In this document: in pieces, positions 9,697 to 31,032 of the stretch
Numbering within the stretch: the stretch's first letter is position 1
Layout of the letters: each line of letters opens with the position of its first letter
Source: Verrucomicrobia bacterium S94
GTDB lineage: Bacteria > Verrucomicrobiota > Kiritimatiellia > Kiritimatiellales > Pontiellaceae
Length of the DNA: 64,000 nucleotides
Reading direction: 5' to 3'
Assembly: GCA_004299845.1 (NCBI GenBank)
Contig: CP036201.1
Span: 4,030,001-4,094,000, forward strand
Program-made: the position numbers and the translations under genes
Notes under the pieces: generated by a model
The model's database searches: none
Told to the model about the DNA's origin: nothing
The model's input: only the letters and a program-made list of their open reading frames with translations

Positions 9697-10770
9697 ATGC
9701 GTATGTTTTGGATGGGGCTGTCTGTTGTGTTGTTATGGTCGGGCCGGGTTCCGGGAAAAACGGAGACTGAATATCCGATTGAGAAAAAGATGCCGGTTGA
9801 GGCGGTGATCACCTATCCGGATTCCAATCCGCTTCGTGAGGCGCTTTTGCCGGTTCCGGAAACCGCGGTGTTCCGGATGGAGGGCTGGTGTCTGTGGGAC
9901 CCCTCGGTCATTAAGGTCGGCGATACCTACCATCTGTTCTGTTCCCGCTGGCCGAAAGCGGATGATCATTCTTTCAATTCAGGGTGGATGCGGAGTCATG
10001 TGATCCGGGCAACGTCGAAGAACCTGTTCGGTCCGTATGAGTTTCAGGAAGTGGTACTGCACCCGAAGGATCATCCGTGGGCAACGCGCGGGATTCATAA
10101 CCCGAAAATTACGAAAGTAGGTGATCGCTTTCTGCTCTATCATCTGGGCATTCCGAAATGGTCCACGGGGTTCGCCTATGCCGATGCCATCGAAGGGCCC
10201 TGGGAGCCGTTGCCGCAACCGGTGCTGAAGGCCAACAATCCGGCTCTGCTCGTTCGTGAAGACGGTTCGGCCTACATGGTTTCGAAACATAAACCGAAAC
10301 CGACGAAGGATGGAAAGTGGGATGCCTGCATGAAAGCGCATGTGGCCGATCAGGTGAATGGTCCGTATAAAACCTTCGGTGAAGGCCGTAACCGGCTGCC
10401 TTATGATTTTGAACTGGAGGACCCGACCATCTGGTGGGCGAACAATCAGTACAATGTCATCTGTACCGACTGGGAGGGCAAAGTGACCGGCATTCAGAAA
10501 CCGGTTGTTTATTACACCTCCAAAGACGGTATTCATTATGAACTTTATTCTGATATTCCGGTCTGGACGCAGACCGAACCGATTCTACTGGAGGATGGAA
10601 CGCAGCTCGAAGCCAGCCGGATTGAACGCCCGCAGGTATATATCAATGAAAAAGGCGAACTGGAGGCTCTGTTGGTTGCTGTGGGAATTGAAGAGCGGAG
10701 TCATGACTATATTGTGATCCGTCCGGTGGATCATTTTGTGCCAACGAATGGAGTGAAAAGTGAAAATTGA
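9697..10770 (+). CDS. Five-bladed beta-propeller glycoside hydrolase-like protein (GH43/GH117-like)
   Basis: A 357-residue secreted protein whose ATG is one base after the PL8 stop, so the two are probably translationally coupled. WCLWDPSVIKVGDTYHLFCSRWP carries the Asp of blade 1 typical of GH43/GH32/GH117 propellers. HPWATRGIHNPKI, KANNPALLVREDGSAYM and FELEDPTIWW follow as further blades, with candidate catalytic Asp/Glu in the last. Such enzymes release terminal sugars or anhydrosugars. The exact family and substrate are uncertain. Confidence 0.65.
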   Translation: MRMFWMGLSVVLLWSGRVPGKTETEYPIEKKMPVEAVITYPDSNPLREALLPVPETAVFRMEGWCLWDPSVIKVGDTYHLFCSRWPKADDHSFNSGWMRSHVIRATSKNLFGPYEFQEVVLHPKDHPWATRGIHNPKITKVGDRFLLYHLGIPKWSTGFAYADAIEGPWEPLPQPVLKANNPALLVREDGSAYMVSKHKPKPTKDGKWDACMKAHVADQVNGPYKTFGEGRNRLPYDFELEDPTIWWANNQYNVICTDWEGKVTGIQKPVVYYTSKDGIHYELYSDIPVWTQTEPILLEDGTQLEASRIERPQVYINEKGELEALLVAVGIEERSHDYIVIRPVDHFVPTNGVKSEN

Positions 10771-11152
10771 ACATTTTGCCTATCAGGTGGAAGATGCCAC
10801 TGCTGTTGCAAACTGGTATAGCGAACAGCTGGGATTTTCGGTGAGACGCGGGTCGGAAAAACCGTTCCCGGTGTATTTTCTGGCCGATGCTTCCGGTGAT
10901 GTTATGATTGAAATCTACAGTAATCCGGCGGTTCAGACTCCGGATTATGCCTCAATGGATCCGTTGATTCTGCACATGGCGTTTGTCTGTGATGATATTC
11001 CTGAAACCATTCAGCGGCTGGAAGCGGCGGGGGCCACGCGGGTTTCCGGCCCTGACGAAACCCCGGCGGGTGATGTGCTGGCCATGCTGCGCGATCCGTG
11101 GGGACTGGCGATTCAGTTGTGCCATCGGGCTGTGTCCATGATTCAGGTTTAG
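10760..11152 (+). CDS. VOC/glyoxalase-superfamily protein
   Basis: GTG start at 10760, preceded by GGAG, overlapping the propeller gene by 11 nt. The 130-residue product has one beta-alpha-beta-beta-beta repeat pair of the vicinal oxygen chelate fold: KIEHFAYQVEDATAVANWY at the start, a central LHMAFVCDDIPETIQRLE, and DPWGLAIQL at the end. His in the first strand and Glu in VMIEIYS are candidate metal ligands. VOC proteins range from glyoxalases to epimerases and resistance proteins. Its place in a sugar locus suggests handling of a sugar-derived aldehyde or keto acid, but that is inference. Confidence 0.8.
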   Translation: MKIEHFAYQVEDATAVANWYSEQLGFSVRRGSEKPFPVYFLADASGDVMIEIYSNPAVQTPDYASMDPLILHMAFVCDDIPETIQRLEAAGATRVSGPDETPAGDVLAMLRDPWGLAIQLCHRAVSMIQV

Positions 11153-11172
11153 AGAGAACCAAAAAAACAGCG

Positions 11173-12530
11173 ATGTTTGAAACTCCGCAGGCGTTACTGG
11201 AGAATCTGCTGGCCCCAATGGTGTCGGTACAGATTTTTTCGGCTATACTGATTTATTTCACGATTGTCCGGAGGCGTATTGCAGCGGATTATAAATTATA
11301 TGTCTGTTTTCTGGTGACCTTTATCCTGTTTCTGATCGGTCGGATTCTTCAGGGGTTTTCGGTTTTTTTTCATTTTATTCCGTTCTGTTTGTCCGGATGG
11401 GGCTGTTGTTTGGTGTTGGAATTCCATCGTTGCTGGTTGCCGCGGCGGTTCAGTCGGGGATGAACCGGTCGAAGGCGTTGTATGTCTGGCCCTATGCCGT
11501 CGGTGCTGTGATTTCCCTGGCTTATATTGCTTTTGCCGATGCGGGGATGCAGGAGTTGGTGGTTACAAAAGAAATGCTGGCGTGGCTTCCGTTCCGGATT
11601 ACAGTCCGTGCTGCACATAAAGTTCAGATTGCCGGTGCGGTGATTATGCTGGTTCTGCCTTGCGGGGCGCTTCTTCTCAGAGAGCTTAAAAATCAGCGTA
11701 ATCCTAATCTTCTGGCCTTCCTGGCGGGGGCTTTTCTTTTCGGTATCTTTTTTGTGGTGGGAACGGTGCGCCCGAAAAGCTACGGGATTTATTATGTCGG
11801 GTCGATTTTCAGCGGGTTGTGCTGGAGCTGGGCGGTTTTCCGGGATATCCGAGATATGAAGGGCCGAATGACGCTTCTGAAGGAAGAGCTGCAGTTTCAG
11901 ATTCAGTCCGGGCGGGGAGAGCGGAATTCGGAAATTGAGCGTTTGCTGGGAAATCTTGAGGAACTTTCGCAGGGAAATCTGGGGGTCTATAAAATGCGCA
12001 TTCGCGAAATCCTCAGTATGTTGACCGATGCCACGATAGAAGCTGGCGGGGATGCGGAGGTTTTGGTTCAGCGGAATGCCGAACGCAGTAGTGCGATTGA
12101 AACGAGTATGGATCCGGATGCAATCCGTGAAATGGTTCGTGCGGAGGCGGTGGAGCTTTCGACGCTGATTGCTGAAATTCCGGAGCAGAAGAGCACCAAG
12201 CTCGTCGAACAGGCTGTGGCGTATCTGAAAAACCGCTTCAGCGAAGATGTGAGCGTGGATAAAATGGCAGAGTCACTGGGCATCAGTCGTTCGCACCTTA
12301 TGCGCGAGTTCAAAAAAGGGACCGGGAAAACGATCAACCAATATCTGACCGCATTGCGGATCGGGCAGGCCGGAAAGCTGTTGGCGACCGCTTCGGTGAC
12401 CGATACCGCCTTTGCGGTGGGCTATAATAATTCCAACTATTTCAGCACCGTTTTCAAGAAGCAGACCGGGCTCAGTCCGCTTGAATTCCAGAAAACGCTC
12501 AAAAAAAGATCTGCCGGATCTGAGCTTTAA
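11173..12530 (+). CDS. Membrane-anchored AraC-family transcriptional regulator, frameshifted
   Basis: ATG at 11173 begins a protein that runs to about 11370 in one frame and continues to 12530 in another. Adding one T to the run of eight at 11363-11370 restores a 452-residue protein (QGFSVFFSFYSVLFVRMG). The first 240 or so residues contain six or seven hydrophobic segments. A charged, coiled-coil-like linker follows (KEELQFQIQ; EIERLLGNLEEL), then a C-terminal AraC double helix-turn-helix (SVDKMAESLGISRSHLMREF; DTAFAVGYNNSNYFSTVFKK). It probably senses a signal at or across the membrane and controls the flanking carbohydrate genes. Confidence 0.8.
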
Positions 12531-12688
12531 AAGCCGAAAACATTAGGTTTTTTGAACAGAGCACTTTTTTAGAGGTCCGTTCGGCACAAAACTGAAGGCG
12601 TAAAATCGGTACTCGGGTTATTTCTTCTTCTTTCCGCCCGCAATCTGGTTGCGGGGAATTTTGAACGGGGTAGAAAAGGAATGGATCG

Positions 12689-20417: not shown

Positions 20418-21863
20418 TCAACAGTTTGCGCGTTCTTCCGCAAGGGGCAGAAGAATGGTAAAGACGGCCCCGTTGCTGTTATGTCCCTGAATGGTTCCGC
20501 GGTGGGCTTCCACAAGGCTTTTAACAATCGACAGGCCGAGGCCGGCGCCGCCCTGTTCGCGGGACCGCGATTTATCGGCGCGGTAAAAGCGTTCAAAAAC
20601 ATGGGGGAGAGAATCAGGCGGTATACCGTCTCCCTCGTCAGAAACCGTTATGACGGCGTGGTCGCCACTTTGCGTTAACATCACGTGTATGGGACAGCCT
20701 GTGGGATTGTGCTGAATGGCATTGCGTATCAGATTCATGAGTATCTGCTGGATACGGGTTTCATCCACATCGGCGTTCAGCGCGCTTTCCGGGGTCTGCA
20801 GGTCGATGGGGTGAAGATCGGAGAGCCGAGCGGCATCTTCAACGGCCTGGGCAATAACGGGATTGAGGGGCTGCACGGTTTTATTCAGGGGGGCTTCTTT
20901 TCCATCAATGCGGGTCAGATCAAGCAGGCTGTCGGCCATGGATTTCATCCGTATCCCGGCCCGCTGGCAGGCTTTCAGAATCGATTGATATTCATCAGGA
21001 GTGCGCACTTTTTTCAGCCCGGCCTGGGTTTGGGCGAGTACGACCGCAATCGGGGTGCGCAGTTCGTGCGAGGCATCGGCGGAAAACCGTTTCTGGTTTT
21101 CAATGGCGTCGTCGAGATGATCGAAGGAGCGGTTCAGGGTGCCGGCCAGACTCTCCAGTTCTTCCGGCGCATCGGCCAGTTTAATTCGACGGCTGTGCGC
21201 TCCTGCTGAAATTTCTTCTGCGGTCCGGCTGATTTCCAGGATCGGTTTCAATGCCCGGCTGATGATGTAACGGCCACCGCTGTATCCGAGCAGAAAAATG
21301 CTGCAGCCGATGAGGATCAGGTATCCGCGCAGATACCGGAGCTGATGTCGGACTTCTGCCAGAGGTCGGCCGATCACTACGAGGGCACCGGAGGGATGGC
21401 GGGTAATCAGTTCGCGTGCGTTCTGATGGGTGATGTAGATCCGGTCGCTGTTCTGCTGAGCATAGAAAGCGTATTGAACATTCGGAATACTGCCGATCTG
21501 GTGGGTTGGATGGCCTTCAGGATCCCATACAGCCAGATAAAGGTTTTTATCCTGCAGCTGATCCGGATCGGGCGCAGCTTTATCCTCCGGGGAGACCGCT
21601 TCTCTTGTCGGCCGGTCAAACTGTGTTTCACGATCCGGCGGCGGGCGGTCGATAGGGCTTTGAAAATCTGGTCTCCGCTTGTCTGGCGGGGCGACGGCAG
21701 GAAGGATTTCAATCAGGGATTCCTGCAGTTCCGTGTCGATCCGGCCGATTGCCGATTTGCGCTGCAGATGATAGTGCAGAGACAATAACGTGATCAGCAC
21801 TGCGGCGAGCAGCAGCATATTCCACATGATCAGCATCCAGCGGATGGAACGGTGGGCTTTCAT
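20418..21863 (-). CDS. Sensor histidine kinase (OmpR-partner type)
   Basis: A 481-residue inner-membrane kinase. Transmembrane segments are near residues 9-29 and 178-195. The periplasmic part between them is unusually rich in Pro, Asp and Arg (DRPPPDRETQFDRP). A HAMP region and HisKA follow, with His266 in SADASHELRTP. N box (NLIRNAIQHN), G1 (VSDEGDGIPP), F box (FERFYRAD) and G2 (GAGLGLSIV) of the ATPase domain are intact. Its ATG immediately follows the regulator TGA, so the pair is translationally coupled. The charged loop could bind a cation as in PmrB, but the ExxE iron motif itself is not seen. Confidence 0.93.
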   Translation of the reverse strand: MKAHRSIRWMLIMWNMLLLAAVLITLLSLHYHLQRKSAIGRIDTELQESLIEILPAVAPPDKRRPDFQSPIDRPPPDRETQFDRPTREAVSPEDKAAPDPDQLQDKNLYLAVWDPEGHPTHQIGSIPNVQYAFYAQQNSDRIYITHQNARELITRHPSGALVVIGRPLAEVRHQLRYLRGYLILIGCSIFLLGYSGGRYIISRALKPILEISRTAEEISAGAHSRRIKLADAPEELESLAGTLNRSFDHLDDAIENQKRFSADASHELRTPIAVVLAQTQAGLKKVRTPDEYQSILKACQRAGIRMKSMADSLLDLTRIDGKEAPLNKTVQPLNPVIAQAVEDAARLSDLHPIDLQTPESALNADVDETRIQQILMNLIRNAIQHNPTGCPIHVMLTQSGDHAVITVSDEGDGIPPDSLPHVFERFYRADKSRSREQGGAGLGLSIVKSLVEAHRGTIQGHNSNGAVFTILLPLAEERANC

Positions 21864-22517
21864 TCAGGCTCCTATGGTATAGCCGATGCCGCGGCGGGTT
21901 TTGATATATTCACCGCCCAGTTTGCGGCGTGCGTTACAGATATGAACATCCAGCACATTCGAGAGGGAGTCATCATCTTCATTGAAGAGATGTTCATACA
22001 GTTCTGTGCGGCTGACGACGGCGTCGCGATGCATCATGAGATATTGAATCAGGGCGTATTCCAATGCGGTAAGTTTGACGGGAGTGCCTTCGACTGAAAC
22101 GGTTTTTTTGGCAGTATCGATTTTCAGCCCTTGAAACGTGAGGGTGGTCGTGGCTTTTCCGGCGGCGCGGCGGATCAGCGCCCGAAGCCGGGCGGCGAGT
22201 TCATCCATATCGAACGGTTTGACCATAAAATCGTCGGAGCCCAGATCCAATCCTCTGATCCGGTCATCCACAGCACCGCGTGCGGTCAGAATAAGGACCG
22301 GTGTATCTTTAACTTTGCGCAGTTTTTCCATCACTTCCCAGCCGTCCATGCGGGGCATCATGATGTCGAGAATGATGGCGTCATAGTTCCACTCCACCGC
22401 CATATAAAATCCCTCTTCGCCATCTTCCGCCTGGTCGACGGCATAGCCTTCGTCTTTCAGCGACATTGCCAGCGCTTCTCTGAGATCCGTTTCATCTTCC
22501 ACAATCAGCAACTTCAT
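21864..22517 (-). CDS. OmpR/PhoB-family response regulator (PmrA/QseB-like)
   Basis: A 217-residue regulator: receiver domain with phosphoacceptor Asp51 (AIILDIMMPRMDGWEV), Thr in LILTARG and Lys in DDFMVKPFD, then a C-terminal winged helix (LTALEYALIQYLMMHRDAVVSRTELYEHLF; HICNARRKLGGEYIKTRRGIGYTIG). RBS AGGAGACAGCT precedes the ATG. A CTTAAT-N5-CTTAAG direct repeat lies at 22567-22583 in its own promoter. The same repeat precedes three nearby transcription units, implying autoregulation plus control of the EF-hand and ferredoxin/flavoprotein genes. PmrA and QseB recognise this half-site pattern in enterobacteria; the link here is inference from the site and the family. Confidence 0.94.
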   Translation of the reverse strand: MKLLIVEDETDLREALAMSLKDEGYAVDQAEDGEEGFYMAVEWNYDAIILDIMMPRMDGWEVMEKLRKVKDTPVLILTARGAVDDRIRGLDLGSDDFMVKPFDMDELAARLRALIRRAAGKATTTLTFQGLKIDTAKKTVSVEGTPVKLTALEYALIQYLMMHRDAVVSRTELYEHLFNEDDDSLSNVLDVHICNARRKLGGEYIKTRRGIGYTIGA

Positions 22518-22549: not shown

Positions 22550-22583
22550 TTTATAGGCTGGCGAACCTTAAGATCAGATTAAG
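22550..22583 (-). promoter_or_regulatory. Regulator-operon promoter with PmrA/QseB-type box
   Basis: Read on the minus strand: CTTAAT (22583-22578), five bases, CTTAAG (22572-22567), eleven bases, then the -10 hexamer TATAAA (22555-22550). The second half-site lies where a -35 element would be, as in activator-dependent pho-box promoters. The regulator ATG is 33 bp beyond the -10. Confidence 0.75.
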
Positions 22584-22887: not shown

Positions 22888-23388
22888 ATGAAAACACAAC
22901 TCATCATCGCCGCCGTATTCGCCGCCGTATTCGCCGCCGGAGCCGCTCTGGCGCAACAGCAGGGCGGGCAGGAACGCCGCGAACCTCCGACCGCTGAGCA
23001 GCTGATTGCCCGGCTGGATAAAGATAACGACGGAAAGATATCGAAGACGGAATTCGATGGCCCTGCCGCGCATTTCACGCAGTTCGATGCCAACGGGGAC
23101 GGATACCTGACCACAGACGAACTGCCGTCCGGATCTCCGAATCAGCAGCAGCGTCAGAATGGCGGTCAAGGTATGCAGCAGGGGAATCAGAGCGGACCAC
23201 GCAGCAGCAGTTCCGGTGCGGATTTTGTGACGCGGCTCGATAAAGACGGCGACGGCAAGGTCTCGAGCACTGAATTCGACGGTCCGTCCGATCATTTTAC
23301 GCAGCTGGACAAGGATGGCGATGGTTTCATCAGTTCGTCCGAAGCTCCATCAGGGCCCCCGCAGGGACAGCGCGGCGATCGCCGGTAA
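22888..23388 (+). CDS. Secreted EF-hand protein (four predicted calcium-binding loops)
   Basis: ATG at 22888 follows GGAGAAACT and gives 166 residues with a signal peptide ending ALAQQQ. Four EF-hand loops are visible: DKDNDGKISKTE, DANGDGYLTTDE, DKDGDGKVSSTE and DKDGDGFISSSE, in two pairs separated by a Gln/Gly/Ser-rich linker. Each pair has the pattern loop-FDGP-HFTQ-loop, so the halves arose by internal duplication. The C-terminus is GPPQGQRGDRR. Proteins of this kind bind calcium in the periplasm or outside the cell; the partner is unknown. It is probably under the box at 22796-22829. Confidence 0.88.
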   Translation: MKTQLIIAAVFAAVFAAGAALAQQQGGQERREPPTAEQLIARLDKDNDGKISKTEFDGPAAHFTQFDANGDGYLTTDELPSGSPNQQQRQNGGQGMQQGNQSGPRSSSSGADFVTRLDKDGDGKVSSTEFDGPSDHFTQLDKDGDGFISSSEAPSGPPQGQRGDRR

Positions 23389-23537: not shown

Positions 23538-23571
23538 CTTAACCTTTCCTTAAGGGTTCTTCCGCTACTCT
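23538..23571 (+). promoter_or_regulatory. Ferredoxin-flavoprotein operon promoter with PmrA/QseB-type box
   Basis: CTTAAC (23538-23543), five bases, CTTAAG (23549-23554), eleven bases, then TACTCT (23566-23571) as a -10. The ferredoxin ATG is at 23612 behind GGAGG. Spacing is identical to the three other sites in the region. Confidence 0.72.
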
Positions 23572-23611: not shown

Positions 23612-23827
23612 ATGGCAATCGACAGAATAGATGGATGTATCGGGTGCGGAACCTGTGTTACGGCGTGTCCGACCGATGTTTTAAGGCTGAATGAAAAAAC
23701 CGGAAAGGCGGAGATTAAATATCTGCAGGAGTGTCAGGTGTGTTACCTGTGCGCTCAGTACTGTCCGGTGGATGCGATAACGATAACCGATGGAAGAGTG
23801 ATTCCTTCCGTAACGGCATGGGGGTGA
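23612..23827 (+). CDS. Dicluster 4Fe-4S ferredoxin
   Basis: A 71-residue protein with GGAGG ribosome binding site and two 4Fe-4S motifs: CIGCGTCVTACPTD and CQVCYLCAQYCPVDA. It resembles the small iron-sulfur partner found beside AprA- or fumarate-reductase-like flavoproteins. It has no signal peptide, so it is either cytosolic or would have to be co-exported with the Tat-targeted flavoprotein encoded two genes downstream. It is 4 bp from the next gene, so the three form one operon. Confidence 0.92.
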   Translation: MAIDRIDGCIGCGTCVTACPTDVLRLNEKTGKAEIKYLQECQVCYLCAQYCPVDAITITDGRVIPSVTAWG

Positions 23828-23831
23828 ATTC

Positions 23832-24476
23832 ATGAAAAAGACGGTGTTTCTAACGCTTTATTCTGCACTGTTCGCCGGGGTTCCGATGCTGCTGGCCCTG
23901 GGTCAGGATGTGCCGGTGGGGCATACGTATCAGCAGTGGGTGCTCTTTCTGAGTCTGGCCGGTTTCGGGCTTCTGCTGGGGCTCTTCTGGCTTTCCCGGC
24001 TCTACGCCCGCGATGCCGCGCCGATGAAATTTTCCAGCACGATGCGCTGGCATAAATATATCGGTTATGCGGCCGGTCTGTTCATGCTCGTGCATCCGGT
24101 GCTGATGATCGCCCGGCGTTTCATGGTAGAGGAATCCAATCCGCTGGATAATTTTGTGCTGCTGATTACGTCGCCGCTGATGCTTACGGGGATTATTGCC
24201 TGGGTGCTGCTGGTGCTGATTGTTGCTCTGGCCTTTGTCCGTAAACATTTCAAATATCAGACATTCCGCCTCATTCACGGAATTCTTTCCTTTGCTTTTG
24301 CTGTTTTTTCAACCTGGCACGTCATCCGGATCGGACGGCACAGCAATCTGGTGATGTCGGTTTTCTGGATACTTGCGGCCGGAACCGCATGCATCAGCCT
24401 GTTACTGGCTTATTTCCCGGTCCGGAAAACATCACCCGATAAAATCTATGAAGGAGAAACGCATGAACCCGCTTAA
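23832..24476 (+). CDS. Ferric reductase-like transmembrane cytochrome b protein
   Basis: A 214-residue integral membrane protein with about six hydrophobic helices. His residues that could bind two b hemes lie in paired helices: MRWHKYIGYAAGLFMLVHPVLM and FRLIHGILSFAFAVFSTWHVIRIG. This is the ferric-reductase/NOX/MsrQ heme fold without the FAD and NAD domains. It would pass electrons across the inner membrane between a cytosolic donor (perhaps the ferredoxin) and an exported acceptor (the flavoprotein). Its 3' end overlaps the flavoprotein start by 14 nt. Confidence 0.88.
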   Translation: MKKTVFLTLYSALFAGVPMLLALGQDVPVGHTYQQWVLFLSLAGFGLLLGLFWLSRLYARDAAPMKFSSTMRWHKYIGYAAGLFMLVHPVLMIARRFMVEESNPLDNFVLLITSPLMLTGIIAWVLLVLIVALAFVRKHFKYQTFRLIHGILSFAFAVFSTWHVIRIGRHSNLVMSVFWILAAGTACISLLLAYFPVRKTSPDKIYEGETHEPA

Positions 24477-26211
24477 TACCAAGTTTAAACGCCGTGGATT
24501 TCTCGGTGCGGTCGGAGGCGGCTGCGCGGTGATCAGCGCCGCCGCCTATGCCGGCCGGGAGATGCCGGTCGGTAACGAGGGCCGCCCGTCAATGTCGCAT
24601 GGTGGCGGTCCGTCTGTGAAAAAGAAAAATGCAGCCGAAGGCCGGCTGACGCAGGTGACTGCTGATGTGCTGGTGGTCGGCGGCGGTATGGCCGGGGTGT
24701 TTGCCGCGGTGAAGGCGCACGACAGCGGGGCACGGGTGCTGCTGGTAGACAAAGGTTCGGTCGGGCGGTCCGGCCAGACCCCGTTTGCCCGCGGTATTTT
24801 CCGGTTTGATGAACAGGATGGAATGAGCCGGGAGGAATATCTCCGGAAGACTGCCGAGGCCGCGGAATACATGAATAATCCCGCATATACCGGGTTGCTG
24901 CTGGATCAGTCGGCGGCCGTGGTCGATGAACTGAAATCCTGGGGCTTTTTTGAAGAGGCCACCTATACCAAAGCCATGAATAAACCGCTCCGGGAACGGA
25001 AAATCCGGGTTATCGAGCGTGTCATGCTCACACATCTTCTGGAGAAAGACGGCCGGGTGGCCGGAGCGATGGGACTTTACATCGATAAAAATGAGTCCAT
25101 TGCCATCCATGCCAAAAGTGTCATTCTCTGCACCGGAGCCAGCGGCTTCAAACCGACGGGCTGGCAGATCGGAGCCCAGACGGCCGATGGAGATGCCATG
25201 GCCTACCGGATCGGGGCGGAGATCAGCGGCAAGGAGTGGGTGGACGGTCATGGCGGAACCAATTACGGCTTGGAAGGAAAGCCCATGACCACCGGTTCGA
25301 ATACCGAAGAGATCCGCGGCATGCTCGGTGTTGAACAGAATATTGAGGTCGAAAAAAACGGTCCGTCTGCCGGCGGGATGATGGGACCGCCCGGCGGTGG
25401 CCCGCCGCCCGGCGGCCGGGATTCCGGAGAGCGGCGCGGCCCGCCCCCGGACGGGGATAAAATGGCCGGTGGTCCGGGAGGCCCTCCCGGTGGCGGTCAT
25501 GGCGGTCCTCCTCCCGGAGGAAAAGGGGGCAAAGGTCCCATCGTGATCGGCGGGGTTTCGGCGGGTATGTCGAATCATAAAGCGGAAGGGCTGTTCCCGC
25601 AGGATGACCGGTGTTCATCCAATATTCCGGGACTCTATGCCGCCGGAGATTCCCTCTGCTCCATGCAGAACGGCGGTATATACACACAGGTCGGCTCTTC
25701 ACTTGCCGGTTCCGGTGCGCAGGGAGCACTGGCTGGAAAAACCGCGGCCCGTTATGCCGCTTCGGTGCAGGAGGTCAGAGTGACCGATGAGGATCTGAAC
25801 CTGATTCGCAGCGATATATATGCACCCTATCTGCGTGAACGCGGATTTTCCCCGCGCTGGGTGACCCGGACCATGCAGGGGGTGATGATTCCGAATTTTA
25901 TTCTTTATGTAAAAAGCGAAGAACGGCTGCAGGCCGCGCTGACCTATATTGAATATATTCGCGATCACCAGGTGCCGCTGCTGAAAGCGGATGATCTGCA
26001 TGAATTGCGCCTTTGCCATGAAACCGCGAATATGGTGCTCAATGCCGAGATGAAACTGCGTGCTTCGCTGATGCGCAAAGAGAGCCGCGGCAGCCATTAC
26101 CGGGAAGATTATCCGGAGCGTAACGATGACGAATGGCTCTGCTGGATTAAGATCCGTCAGGATAAAGACGGCAATATGGAGACCGTGAAGCATCCGGTTC
26201 CTGCAGTCTGA
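24463..26211 (+). CDS. Tat-exported FAD-dependent fumarate reductase/succinate dehydrogenase-like flavoprotein
   Basis: ATG at 24463 has AAGGAG eight bases upstream and gives 582 residues. The N-terminus carries a twin-arginine signal (KRRGFLGAVGGG). The dinucleotide-binding fold begins ADVLVVGGGMAGVFAAVKA, and the FAD-binding_2 C-terminal block is GLYAAGDSLCSMQNGG with SLAGSGAQGALAGKTAA. Around residues 300-360 a Gly/Pro-rich low-complexity stretch interrupts the domain. The family includes fumarate reductases, AprA-like subunits and other double-bond reductases. No heme or FMN-binding domain is fused, so the heme protein encoded upstream may be its electron donor. The substrate is unknown. 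Confidence 0.88.
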   Translation: MNPLNTKFKRRGFLGAVGGGCAVISAAAYAGREMPVGNEGRPSMSHGGGPSVKKKNAAEGRLTQVTADVLVVGGGMAGVFAAVKAHDSGARVLLVDKGSVGRSGQTPFARGIFRFDEQDGMSREEYLRKTAEAAEYMNNPAYTGLLLDQSAAVVDELKSWGFFEEATYTKAMNKPLRERKIRVIERVMLTHLLEKDGRVAGAMGLYIDKNESIAIHAKSVILCTGASGFKPTGWQIGAQTADGDAMAYRIGAEISGKEWVDGHGGTNYGLEGKPMTTGSNTEEIRGMLGVEQNIEVEKNGPSAGGMMGPPGGGPPPGGRDSGERRGPPPDGDKMAGGPGGPPGGGHGGPPPGGKGGKGPIVIGGVSAGMSNHKAEGLFPQDDRCSSNIPGLYAAGDSLCSMQNGGIYTQVGSSLAGSGAQGALAGKTAARYAASVQEVRVTDEDLNLIRSDIYAPYLRERGFSPRWVTRTMQGVMIPNFILYVKSEERLQAALTYIEYIRDHQVPLLKADDLHELRLCHETANMVLNAEMKLRASLMRKESRGSHYREDYPERNDDEWLCWIKIRQDKDGNMETVKHPVPAV

Positions 26212-26240: not shown

Positions 26241-26278
26241 TCCGGCTTCTGTGAATGTTCAGAGGCCGGATTTTTTAT
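26241..26278 (+). terminator. Terminator after flavoprotein gene
   Basis: CCGGCTTCTG, an eight-base loop, CAGAGGCCGG and ATTTTTTA. It lies between the flavoprotein and the convergent esterase gene and may serve the plus-strand operon. Confidence 0.75.
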
Positions 26279-27351
26279 TGCGCAGTTTTGTTTCCGCCGT
26301 TTTGAACCTGCTTCAGGACAAACTGCACCATCGCTTCAAAGGGGGCGGAGCGGGAGTCGTAGTCGGCACTGGTGGTCCGGATATAATCAATGTTCAGTTT
26401 ATCCATGGCTTCGGCCAGATGGATGCCGAAGTTTGGATGATGGATGTTTCCGGGCTGTCGGGTCTTTTCCGAGTGGTAGATGAAGACCGGCGGGTCATCC
26501 GCAGTCAGATGATTGATGGGCGAGGCCTCTTTGATCCGTGCATCAAGTTTTTTGTCGATCGGGTCCGTTTCCCAGTTCCAGTCGGCGGGCAGTCCGTAGA
26601 ATAACTTCAGGGCGGAATCATCGAAGGCGATGCCGGGAATAATTTTCTGTATAACACGTGGGTCGTAGGTGGACTGCATACTGAAGGCCAGGGCGCAGGT
26701 GAGGCGGGTGGACTGCTGCTCCACCGGATCTCTGCTTTCCGGATTTTTCAGATCGTCGTGAAACGCGAGCCACTGGGCAATGCCGGATCCGGCCGACCCG
26801 CCGCCGGCCGCGAGTTTTTCGGGATCAATATTCCATTCTGCGGCTTTGGAGCGGAGGAACTGGATTGCCCGGGCGCTGTCGTGCATCTGGGCCGGGAAAG
26901 GGGCGATGCCGGAAAGACGGTAGTTGATCGAGGCCGCGGATACGCCGTTGGAAAGAAAGCCTTCGAGCAGAATCGGATTGATCGTCGATTTATCGCCGCT
27001 TCGGAATCCGCCGCCGTGGATGAAAACGAAAAGCGGCGTGGGCGTATCGGAATCCGCCTGCCAGAAATCGAGCGTCATGGAAGCATGTGCTCCATAGGAA
27101 ACATCGGCAAAGGTCGGGGGGTGTTTCTTCGGCTGTTTCCGCTGACTATTTTTCGGCTGTTTTGGGATCTGACCGCGAGCGGCCCGCAGTTCGGTCAGGG
27201 TTAAAATCCCGTCGTTGTCGGCATCGAGTTCCGGTCGTCTTTCCAGCAGTTTCTTCAGCCGGTCATCATTTGTCGATGTTGGTGCGCTGGGCCGGGCGAA
27301 CCCCGCGGAAACCGTTAGGAAGGCTAAAAACAGAGCGGTTGTTTTTTTCAT
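26275..27351 (-). CDS. Secreted alpha/beta-hydrolase (esterase-like) with N-terminal EF-hand
   Basis: A 358-residue protein with signal peptide (to GFARP). An EF-hand loop follows (ELDADNDGILTLTELRAARG), then a Lys/Pro-rich linker, then a carboxylesterase/lipase-like domain: oxyanion motif FIHGGGFRSGD, nucleophile motif GGGSAGSGIAQWL, and a C-terminal region with candidate acid and His. It is convergent with the flavoprotein operon. It is the third EF-hand protein in 5 kb, although its promoter does not contain the shared direct repeat in this orientation. Confidence 0.85.
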   Translation of the reverse strand: MKKTTALFLAFLTVSAGFARPSAPTSTNDDRLKKLLERRPELDADNDGILTLTELRAARGQIPKQPKNSQRKQPKKHPPTFADVSYGAHASMTLDFWQADSDTPTPLFVFIHGGGFRSGDKSTINPILLEGFLSNGVSAASINYRLSGIAPFPAQMHDSARAIQFLRSKAAEWNIDPEKLAAGGGSAGSGIAQWLAFHDDLKNPESRDPVEQQSTRLTCALAFSMQSTYDPRVIQKIIPGIAFDDSALKLFYGLPADWNWETDPIDKKLDARIKEASPINHLTADDPPVFIYHSEKTRQPGNIHHPNFGIHLAEAMDKLNIDYIRTTSADYDSRSAPFEAMVQFVLKQVQNGGNKTAQ

Positions 27352-27403: not shown

Positions 27404-27437
27404 CTTAATCTCAACTTAATGCAACCGGTGGTATGTT
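27404..27437 (+). promoter_or_regulatory. EF-hand lipoprotein promoter with PmrA/QseB-type box
   Basis: CTTAAT (27404-27409), five bases, CTTAAT (27415-27420), eleven bases, then TATGTT (27432-27437). The -10 hexamer is identical to that of the first EF-hand gene. The lipoprotein ATG is at 27464. Confidence 0.72.
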
Positions 27438-27463: not shown

Positions 27464-27733
27464 ATGATGAAATATTTCAGTTTATTTCTTTTGATGGCAT
27501 TCGCTGCCGGCTGTCAGCAGCGGCCGGGTGGAAGAAAAGGCGGGGGACCGCTGGATGCTTCCGGTGCCGATTTTGTTAAGCGGCTGGATAAGGATGGTGA
27601 CGGAAAGGTTTCCGCACAGGAATTTGATGGCCCGGAAGATCATTTTTCGCAGTGCGATAAAAATAACGATGGCTATCTTACGGAAGATGAAGCGCCCGGC
27701 GGGCCGCCGGCGCGCGGTGGTGAACGACGCTAG
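27464..27733 (+). CDS. Small EF-hand lipoprotein
   Basis: ATG at 27464 behind GGAGAACCTGGT gives 89 residues. FLLMAFAAGC is a lipobox, so the protein is probably acylated at Cys and held on a membrane. Two EF-hand loops follow, DKDGDGKVSAQE and DKNNDGYLTEDE, joined by FDGPEDHFSQC, the same arrangement as in the EF-hand protein at 22888. The C-terminus GGPPARGGERR is also shared. It is therefore a short paralogue of that protein, with a matching promoter box and terminator. Confidence 0.88.
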   Translation: MMKYFSLFLLMAFAAGCQQRPGGRKGGGPLDASGADFVKRLDKDGDGKVSAQEFDGPEDHFSQCDKNNDGYLTEDEAPGGPPARGGERR

Positions 27734-28711: not shown

Positions 28712-29994
28712 TCACTCTTCCCAGTGCGGCTGCACACAGGCAGGCTCATCGGTGGGTGAACACAGGGCATTCAGCGCATCTTTTATAACCGGGGTATTCT
28801 GATAGGTCTGCAGCAGGGGGGCGCATTCGGCAGTGAGTGCGTCGTCTTTGAATTTCAATCGGGATTCCCGGCCCATGGAGGCGAGATAGGAACGGGAAAG
28901 CCGGTCGAGGTCGTCGAGCCCCTGTACATACAGTCTGTTTTGTTCATCCTGATCCAGCTTCTCAAAAAGCGGGTCCAGTTTTGCACGTTGCAGCACATTA
29001 AGCGGAAAGGTGTTCTTCAGTTCGCGGATCCAGAAGTAAGCGCGGTACGGATGCGAATCTTTAAATGTATCAATCCAGTTGATCATGGAATAAATAAACC
29101 GGTTCATCTCCTTGCGGCTGTGATGGGGATCCCTTTCAAGGTAGCGGGCCTCCAGCAGCGCCATGGCATCGTGCAGCATCCAGGGCGGAGCGCTTTTGTG
29201 GCCCTCGCCGTGAAACCAATGAACAGCTTTCCCGCCGATCTGTTTGCGTGCCCAGGCACTGGTATAGCGGTTGAAATCGCTTCCGCCGGTAATGATGACA
29301 GTATCGCATGAAGGCGGCTCCAGCCTTGGGGAATGTAGGTGCTCATAGGAATCAGGCCGCAGGCCTTCCACGTATTCTGATTATAATAACTCACCGATGC
29401 TCCCGCTGAAAATCCAGCGAAATAGAGCCGTCGCCGATCCACCGGCGCGGTATTCAGCAGCGTCTGAACCATGCTGTCGCAGATTTTTCGGTTCACATCG
29501 ACTGAATTATAATAATCCGGTTCAACAGCCACGGCCACGATCCAGCCCGTCACCTCAGCACCGTTGATAAGTTCGCGGATGTTCAGCAGTTTTCCACCCG
29601 TCGGACCGGTGTACAGCATCAGCGGAGCGGAACGGATATCGGCCAGTGATTTCGGAACATACAGATAAAAGCTCGAGCCGTCGATCGCCTCCAGCGGTCC
29701 CAGAATTTCTCCCCGTCTGTAGGCTGCGCTCTCCACTTTTCCGGTATTCGTGCCGAGTGCCTTCCGGCTTTCCTCCTTAAATAAGTAGTCCTGATCTTCA
29801 GTCGATAATCTGGCGATAGGGACGATGTACTTCTGCAGCTCTTTGCTGAGCAGTACAACCGTATCATTATTCCGGACTGAGGCGTATTGTGCATACAGTG
29901 TTTGTGATCCATCCCGGGACCGCCATTCGCGCATCTCCCCGGCCAGGCCGTGGAGTGAGAGCAGCAGAATGGTCGGCAGAAATAGCGGTTTCAT
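28712..29994 (-). CDS. Secreted alpha/beta-hydrolase-like protein with N-terminal SHD1-type domain, frameshifted
   Basis: Two overlapping minus-strand frames join near 29318-29325 with one added base (STYIPQGWEPPSCDTVIITGG), giving about 427 residues. After a signal peptide, residues about 20-75 (EMREWRSRDGSQTLYAQY, KELQKYIVPIARLSTEDQDYL) match the SHD1-type domain common in PVC secreted proteins. The rest has a hydrolase-like core: FYLYVPKSL, LMLYTGPTGG, and the nucleophile-elbow motif FAGFSAGASVSYY. WFHGEGHKSAPPWML offers a C-terminal His. The substrate is unknown. The downstream SHD1-like gene at 30020 is on the same strand and lies just upstream in transcription. Confidence 0.7.
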
Positions 29995-30019
29995 AATTCA
30001 GCACTCCTGTGCCCTGAGT

Positions 30020-30751
30020 TCAATTATCGATGAAAACCTCTTTGACGATTTGAACACCATTAAGTTTCGGGCCGTGAAACTGAAGCCGAATGCCGGTTAC
30101 ATTCTGTTTGCCGGTTTTGCGCGGGACTTCGTTGGTATAGGTATATCCGACTCCGCTCGTTATCCGCACCGGTTCCGGGGAGTATACCATTTTATAGGTT
30201 TCGGCGGCCTTGACCGGCTGTGTTTTGAAATCCCTGCGACCGCCGGCGTGGATCCGTCCGATAAAAATTTTACCGGGCACGTTGATGGTGTCCTGCCCGC
30301 CGGTATCATAATTATCCAGCACCCGGAGCACCTCGTATTTCATCGCCACCTTTTCATAATCGAGCGGCGTTTTATTCTGAATGGATATGTCATACCAGAC
30401 ATGGTCGTTCCGGTCGGTCCGTTTGGCCGATACATAGAGCCGGTCGTTGGACAAAAACCATTTCGCCGCGATCCATTCCTTCAGATAAGCGCGATCTTCA
30501 TCCGAAAAGTGTTTGGGGCTGATCCAGCTTGTCCGGCCCGCTTCGTTTTCAACCCGGAACTGCTTCCGCTGCTCATTCCAGTCCAGCACCTTCAGGGAAA
30601 TCGTTTTCTGATCCGAAAGCGTGAACTCCCGGGACGTATGCAGCTGCGAAAAATCCTCCGCGACTGATCGAATTGCCGGCAGTCCCGTCAATGCCATCAG
30701 CATACAGGGAAAAAGAATCCGTCTTTTGTAATGAACAGCCTTCATCATCAT
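30020..30751 (-). CDS. Exported SHD1-like domain protein of unknown function
   Basis: Any of three consecutive ATG codons (30751, 30748, 30745) could start this protein of about 243 residues; no good ribosome binding site decides. A signal-like hydrophobic stretch is followed by HTSREFTLSDQKTISLKV, SWISPKHFSDEDRAYLKEW, which resembles the SHD1-type domain. The C-terminal 150 residues look like a beta-sandwich (HVWYDISIQNKTPLDYEKVAM; VIGRIHAGGRRDFKT-like) and I do not recognise it. It lies 25 bp upstream of the SHD1-hydrolase gene and is probably co-transcribed. Confidence 0.6.
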   Translation of the reverse strand: MMMKAVHYKRRILFPCMLMALTGLPAIRSVAEDFSQLHTSREFTLSDQKTISLKVLDWNEQRKQFRVENEAGRTSWISPKHFSDEDRAYLKEWIAAKWFLSNDRLYVSAKRTDRNDHVWYDISIQNKTPLDYEKVAMKYEVLRVLDNYDTGGQDTINVPGKIFIGRIHAGGRRDFKTQPVKAAETYKMVYSPEPVRITSGVGYTYTNEVPRKTGKQNVTGIRLQFHGPKLNGVQIVKEVFIDN

Positions 30752-31032
30752 TGCAACCACACGCCAACACAGGTTTATCGTTTTTCAGAACGAATCATAA
30801 TACATTGCAGTTTAGCTGTATAGGCCTGATCTGATCCTCTAAAACCGAACCGTTTCAGTGGATCAGGTTACATTCTGTCTATTCTCGGCTATCAGGTGTT
30901 GGATAAGAAATCCGCCGCATTCTTTACTCAACACAGTAATAAAACGATGTCTGATCTGTAAGGGGAAATTCGGAGTGACCTAGGGGAAGGCGGTACGCCT
31001 TCGGTACAGACTTTGATGCGGCGGCCGGCGGA

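Follow-up and report, generated by a model that had tools for sequence, protein, structure and literature searches.

The genes at positions 23612-26211 of the window (the whole stretch of 64,000 nucleotides analyzed here) encode a ferredoxin (Fd), a PF01794 membrane protein (TM) and a flavoprotein (FP), and this Fd-TM-FP triad is a real, conserved system. The gene order is more than chance, since six Pontiellaceae genomes and Paracoccus seriniphilus share it. By a narrow balance, we favor the reading in which the three proteins form a dedicated path for electrons across the inner membrane. Fd would reduce the inner-face heme of TM at the strongly basic cytosolic loops of this protein, the electrons would pass from this heme to the outer one, and from there they would be taken up by the exported FP to reduce a small periplasmic substrate other than a fumarate- or acrylate-type acid. 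The complete version of this proposal is advanced tentatively, as possible rather than probable: a cytosolic low-potential Fd would drive a two-heme cytochrome b, which would feed an exported flavoenzyme that resembles APS reductase and acts on a new substrate, independently of quinone and covalent flavin and switched on by extracellular Ca2+ or another metal via a PmrA-like kinase. The triad resembles known electron wires, and no description of its combination of parts (a Tat flavoprotein in a unit with a ferredoxin and a PF01794 cytochrome) was found in the open-access literature.

Gene organization and conservation of the triad

The source genome (G000) is complete, with 4.1 Mb on a single contig, and its close relatives belong to Pontiella (Kiritimatiellota). 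Based on the list of open reading frames and on Pfam and NCBIfam scans, three overlapping or touching genes were assigned:

23612-23827, + strand: dicluster ferredoxin Fd, 71 aa, without signal peptide, C-terminal tail IPSVTAWG
23832-24476, + strand: ferric-reductase-like membrane protein TM, six helices, 214 aa, PF01794 (1.4e-12)
24463-26211, + strand: Tat-signal flavoprotein FP of the FrdA/AprA superfamily, 582 aa

The gap between the end of Fd and the start of the TM gene is 4 nt, and the FP gene, with its ATG at 24463, overlaps the TM gene by 14 nt. The mechanical ORF of FP opens further upstream, at a TTG (24373). An SD-like sequence CGGAGG is located at about 23600, upstream of Fd. Fd contains two complete CxxCxxCxxxCP motifs (2[4Fe-4S]) and matches Fer4 (1.3e-12), and the Pfam domains of FP are FAD_binding_2 (2.2e-23) and Succ_DH_flav_C (4.2e-17). 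An earlier reading made from the letters of the sequence (the sequence-only reading) had described three overlapping or nearly touching genes for a ferredoxin, a membrane heme protein and a flavoprotein, with which coordinates and Pfam domains agree.

The sequence-only reading had depended on the three genes not being rarely found together. The profiles of TM and FP matched the same six of 29 family genomes, always as adjacent genes, with neither of them in the remaining 23, and the genes also occur together in an alphaproteobacterium. Among 388 phylum genomes, TM matches below E 1e-100 are confined to the genus. Two weak TM matches outside the genus were rejected, one being a ferric reductase of the ordinary kind, which has FAD/NAD domains (L051), and the other a broken remnant of a triad TM protein (L052 2585-3019, genome G260).

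The identical gene order was found in Paracoccus seriniphilus, where a plasmid encodes Fd, a protein similar to ferric reductases and an FP with a Tat signal, next to a different two-component system (response regulator and kinase). The Paracoccus TM shares 28% identity with the window TM (E 4e-21) and retains all four heme-type His, despite having no Pfam match at E 0.001. A deletion of 2 residues in Fd is common to the Pontiella and Paracoccus triads. The triad FPs form one clade (support 100/99) in a tree rebuilt without the Cupriavidus protein, since this outgroup had a long branch with which resolution was lost. In P. sulfatireligans F21 (L014, 4205-7767), the exported FP is duplicated in tandem, with one Fd and one TM ahead of both copies.

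Membrane protein

TM scored 48.2 bits against PF01794 (gathering threshold 28) and its relative in L068 44.9 bits, and the TM gene is the sole PF01794 gene in the window genome. No NCBIfam model matched the protein. No FAD or NAD domain was found in the Pfam scan, and its four His follow the pattern of a two-heme cytochrome b, in keeping with the earlier description as a heme membrane protein without FAD/NAD domains. H74/H88 and H149/H163 are invariant in six sequences from two phyla at 27-28% identity, with a spacing of 14 residues within helix 3 and within helix 5. From this arrangement, the pairs H74/H149 and H88/H163 are each expected to hold a heme b, one near each face of the membrane.

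The six hydrophobic helices are predicted to start from a cytosolic N-terminus by the positive-inside rule. The cytosolic loops R56-K75 and R137-R146 are strongly basic, and R56, K66, R72, K75, R137 and R146 are kept in Paracoccus. These loops could receive an acidic ferredoxin, but many membrane proteins have basic inner loops. The AlphaFold model of TM was poor (pLDDT 52) and had no Foldseek match at E<=0.001.

In E. coli, MsrPQ is a periplasmic methionine sulfoxide reductase with the heme membrane subunit MsrQ. MsrPQ and the triad both combine a PF01794 cytochrome b lacking FAD/NAD domains with a Tat-exported reductase, whereas MsrP is a molybdoenzyme and the terminal enzyme of the triad is a FAD_binding_2 protein, accompanied by its own ferredoxin gene. 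The MsrQ-like flavinylated systems likewise use PF01794 as a modular transmembrane conduit to extracytosolic redox proteins, but contain FMN-bind domains and ApbE, in many cases along with NAD(P)H domains, instead of which the triad has a ferredoxin (PMC8238504). Among the eight proteins in and around the operon, no FMN_bind or ApbE domain was found in the Pfam scan. Certain Tat-exported modules also combine a small ferredoxin with a b-type cytochrome; their ferredoxins are tail-anchored and mostly carry their own Tat signal, in contrast to the signal-free Fd of the triad (PMC10924467). The triad would extend the known modular transmembrane cytochromes by a branch that is fed from ferredoxin.

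Tat signal, fold and active site of the flavoprotein

The N-terminus of FP (MNPLNTKFKRRGFLGAVGGGCAVISAAAYA) consists of a twin-Arg followed by a hydrophobic stretch. The twin-Arg motif (KRRGFLG or equivalents) is present in every triad FP, and TatC is encoded in the window genome (185.7 bits). The Tat targeting proposed earlier is consistent with these sequence features, which argue against a cytosolic FP.

The best fold match of FP was the PAPS reductase alpha subunit of Methanothermococcus thermolithotrophicus (8a8o; Z 29.5, rmsd 2.8, 352 aligned), followed by FrdA (Z 27) and AprA; the match is strong, though the structure model of FP is mediocre (mean pLDDT 56). The NCBIfam models aprA for FP (82 bits, cut-off 641.75) and aprB for Fd (31.7 bits, cut-off 135.65) were both missed.

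The active site bears on another possible role of FP, as a reductase of fumarate or caffeate-type acrylates that works in the periplasm and is supplied by an unusual donor. FAD_binding_2, Succ_DH_flav_C and the FrdA fold match would suit such an enzyme, and Pontiella reduces fumarate, a reaction credited there to sdhABC (PMC7356697). H263 and H372 of FP correspond to FrdA H232 and H355. In E. coli FrdA, the substrate and catalytic Arg are R287 and R390, and we take these residue roles to be established. The R390 position is occupied by Gln409 (Q409) in FP, and in the FP family alignment none of the Arg between H263 and H372, where R287 should be, is invariant. With both Arg lacking a counterpart in this way, FP is unlikely to reduce fumarate or acrylates as FrdA does, and all NCBIfam fumarate reductase models were far below their cut-offs for FP. 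As a whole, this alternative is regarded as very improbable. The fumarate-reductase-like function assigned by the sequence-only reading is not upheld, given these positions and the PAPS reductase alpha subunit as nearest structure. Like FP, the fumarate and urocanate reductases FccA and UrdA are exported FAD_binding_2 enzymes that receive their electrons across the membrane. They differ in having the catalytic Arg and domains of the heme c or FMN-bind type, both of which are missing from FP.

A Gly/Pro-rich insertion was found directly ahead of the active-site H372 (about residues 305-360; window 25375-25545). It is kept in character but not in sequence, and is also present in relatives without a signal peptide. 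Judged by sequence, the insertion is a hallmark of the FP family, exported or not.

Flavoprotein-ferredoxin pairs and the electron donor

Adjacent FP-Fd pairs without a TM gene were found outside the triad in L021, L022, L023 and L024, mostly without a signal peptide; the L021 pair is a second copy within a Pontiella genome. AprBA and the Methanothermococcus PAPS reductase are cytosolic FAD-ferredoxin complexes of the alpha2beta2 type (PMC10322725). They share with the triad a FAD-containing alpha subunit of the same superfamily and a 2[4Fe-4S] ferredoxin-like beta subunit (8a8o), but they are cytosolic and have neither the membrane cytochrome nor the Tat signal of the triad. Their beta subunit provides a Trp relay between cluster and FAD, whereas the window Fd has a Gln (CQVC at 41-44). 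This position is Q or M in all close relatives and W only in Cupriavidus (CW.C).

An origin of the triad from a soluble FP-Fd pair is proposed because pairs without TM exist and the FP fold is nearest to the PAPS reductase alpha subunit. In the simplest history, which is drawn from a tree that is not firmly rooted, FP of an AprBA/PAPS-reductase-type pair would have acquired a Tat signal, and a gene for a cytochrome b would have come to lie between those of Fd and FP. The triad would then show how a soluble flavoprotein-ferredoxin pair could become an envelope system.

The same pairs are relevant to an opposite assignment of the donor. The FP-Fd complex could form in the cytosol, with Fd being co-exported as a Tat hitchhiker, while the cytochrome b would anchor the complex and deliver menaquinol electrons, in a manner likened to DMSO reductase or hydrogenase-type assemblies. 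Complexes of FP and Fd without TM would be in line with the pairs in relatives, as in AprBA and the Methanothermococcus PAPS reductase (alpha2beta2; PMC10322725), and the non-cluster Fd residues D22, V23, R25 and Y37 and an aromatic residue at 70 are retained in triads and pairs. Tat hitchhiking, including that of a ferredoxin without a signal, has been documented or inferred elsewhere (PMC10924467). In L020, a Tat-signal FP is followed directly by Fd, with no TM gene nearby and no TM homologue found in its genome; this point is tempered by the state of genome G222 (89% complete, short contig), in which a TM gene could be missing. Two further results argue against co-export. A single Fd gene serves two FPs (L014) or three (L031), two of the Ilyobacter FPs lacking a signal, and the deletion in the triad Fds is unseen in the Fds of the pairs. 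We consider co-export of Fd somewhat unlikely, though a strong competitor of the proposed route.

With regard to the proposed route from cytosolic Fd, RnfB is present in the window genome and suggests a ferredoxin economy. MqnA/MqnD-type genes of the futalosine route are present as well; they indicate that menaquinone is available, a point in favor of co-export, and quinol could be the donor. Since both RnfB and the menaquinone genes are present, the genome does not decide between the donors. One Fd for two FPs in P. sulfatireligans and for three in Ilyobacter fits a shared donor.

The Ilyobacter polytropus locus (L031 1356-9651, on a plasmid) encodes a membrane protein of the NapH/NosR type (FMN-bind, 4Fe-4S), an Fd and three FPs, with TatA-TatC-TatA behind them and a Tat signal on the third FP only. 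The adjacent Tat genes are independent support for export. In addition, the FMN-bind 4Fe-4S protein in place of TM shows that the membrane module can be swapped.

Regulation and EF-hand neighbors

Upstream and downstream of the triad, the following features were identified:

20418-21863, - strand: sensor histidine kinase (HisKA + HATPase_c, HAMP), best NCBIfam match cztS_silS_copS, below cut-off
21864-22517, - strand: OmpR/PhoB-type response regulator, best NCBIfam match PmrA (213.5 bits, cut-off 330), then CztR/SilR/CopR
22568-22583, - strand: PmrA-like box CTTAATCTGATCTTAA upstream of the response regulator, conserved in L017
22796-22811, + strand: imperfect box CTTCACGTATTCTTAA (1 mismatch) upstream of an EF-hand gene, exact in L017 (CTTAACGTATTCTTAA)
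22888-23388, + strand: secreted EF-hand protein with Sec-type signal and four canonical EF-hand loops
23538-23553, + strand: PmrA-like box CTTAACCTTTCCTTAA, 58 nt ahead of the Fd start codon, conserved before Fd in L017, L018 and L019
26275-27351, - strand: BD-FAE-like secreted esterase with an EF-hand-like loop near the N-terminus, divergent from the box at 27404
27404-27419, + strand: PmrA-like box CTTAATCTCAACTTAA, with the esterase on one side and the EF-hand lipoprotein on the other
27464-27733, + strand: EF-hand lipoprotein (MMKYFSLFLLMAFAAGC), assigned from EF-hand families and sequence

The box is a direct repeat of CTTAA with 11 bp spacing (CTTAA-N6-CTTAA). Only four exact sites exist in the 4.1 Mb genome, three of which lie within 4.9 kb, before the response regulator, Fd and the EF-hand lipoprotein. 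The reversed pattern occurs 13 times in the genome, so it is the clustering of the boxes that counts and not their total number. The box-controlled expression proposed by the sequence-only reading gains support from this cluster and from the conservation of the box in L017-L019. An exact box before Fd is absent in L014, L030 and L068, and no substitute short direct repeats were found in these three. Taking the motif evidence together, expression of the triad in the window and the nearest relatives probably depends on a PmrA-like two-component system. The esterase (26275-27351) is a probable regulon neighbor.

Homologues of the secreted EF-hand protein (22888-23388) flank the triad in L018, L019 and L068. 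In L068, which is part of an 8.7 Mb Pontiella genome, a kinase (10965-12548, + strand) and a regulator (10257-10925) are encoded beside the triad, and the periplasmic sensor domain of the kinase contains two EF-hand loops (Pfam EF-hand_5 and EF-hand_1, just above the cut-offs). The box shared with EF-hand genes, the recurrence of these genes and the L068 kinase make the earlier idea of a metal or calcium link better supported than before. The recurring EF-hand proteins suggest extracellular Ca2+ or another metal as the trigger.

When Pontiella ferments, it also reduces sulfur, ferric citrate and AQDS; how and why it does so was unclear to its describers (PMC7356697). The triad occurs in P. sulfatireligans and offers a concrete candidate for an electron outlet of Pontiella, one that can be deleted. 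If metals were the acceptor, the heme protein and FP would act as an assimilatory or dissimilatory reductase of Fe(III) or another metal outside the membrane, with the EF-hand proteins buffering the metal. The PF01794 homology of TM, the reduction of ferric citrate by Pontiella via an unknown route (PMC7356697) and the link of MsrQ-like systems to iron uptake (PMC8238504) would agree with this, as would the nearest matches of the regulator and kinase to PmrA and heavy-metal types, all below cut-off. However, no iron transporter was identified among the neighboring genes examined, the EF-hand loops are of the canonical Ca2+ type, and a small molecule is the likelier substrate of a Rossmann FAD enzyme whose active-site His is conserved. 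A metal reductase is therefore considered improbable compared with the proposed electron route to a small periplasmic substrate.

Secreted proteins with SHD1-like repeats (F.A.DGR.L.AKV) resemble window proteins encoded at 29104-30760 (- strand, without a box). Further PmrA-like boxes are located near genes for such repeat proteins in L018 (2291 and 3215) and L019 (8955 and 10423).
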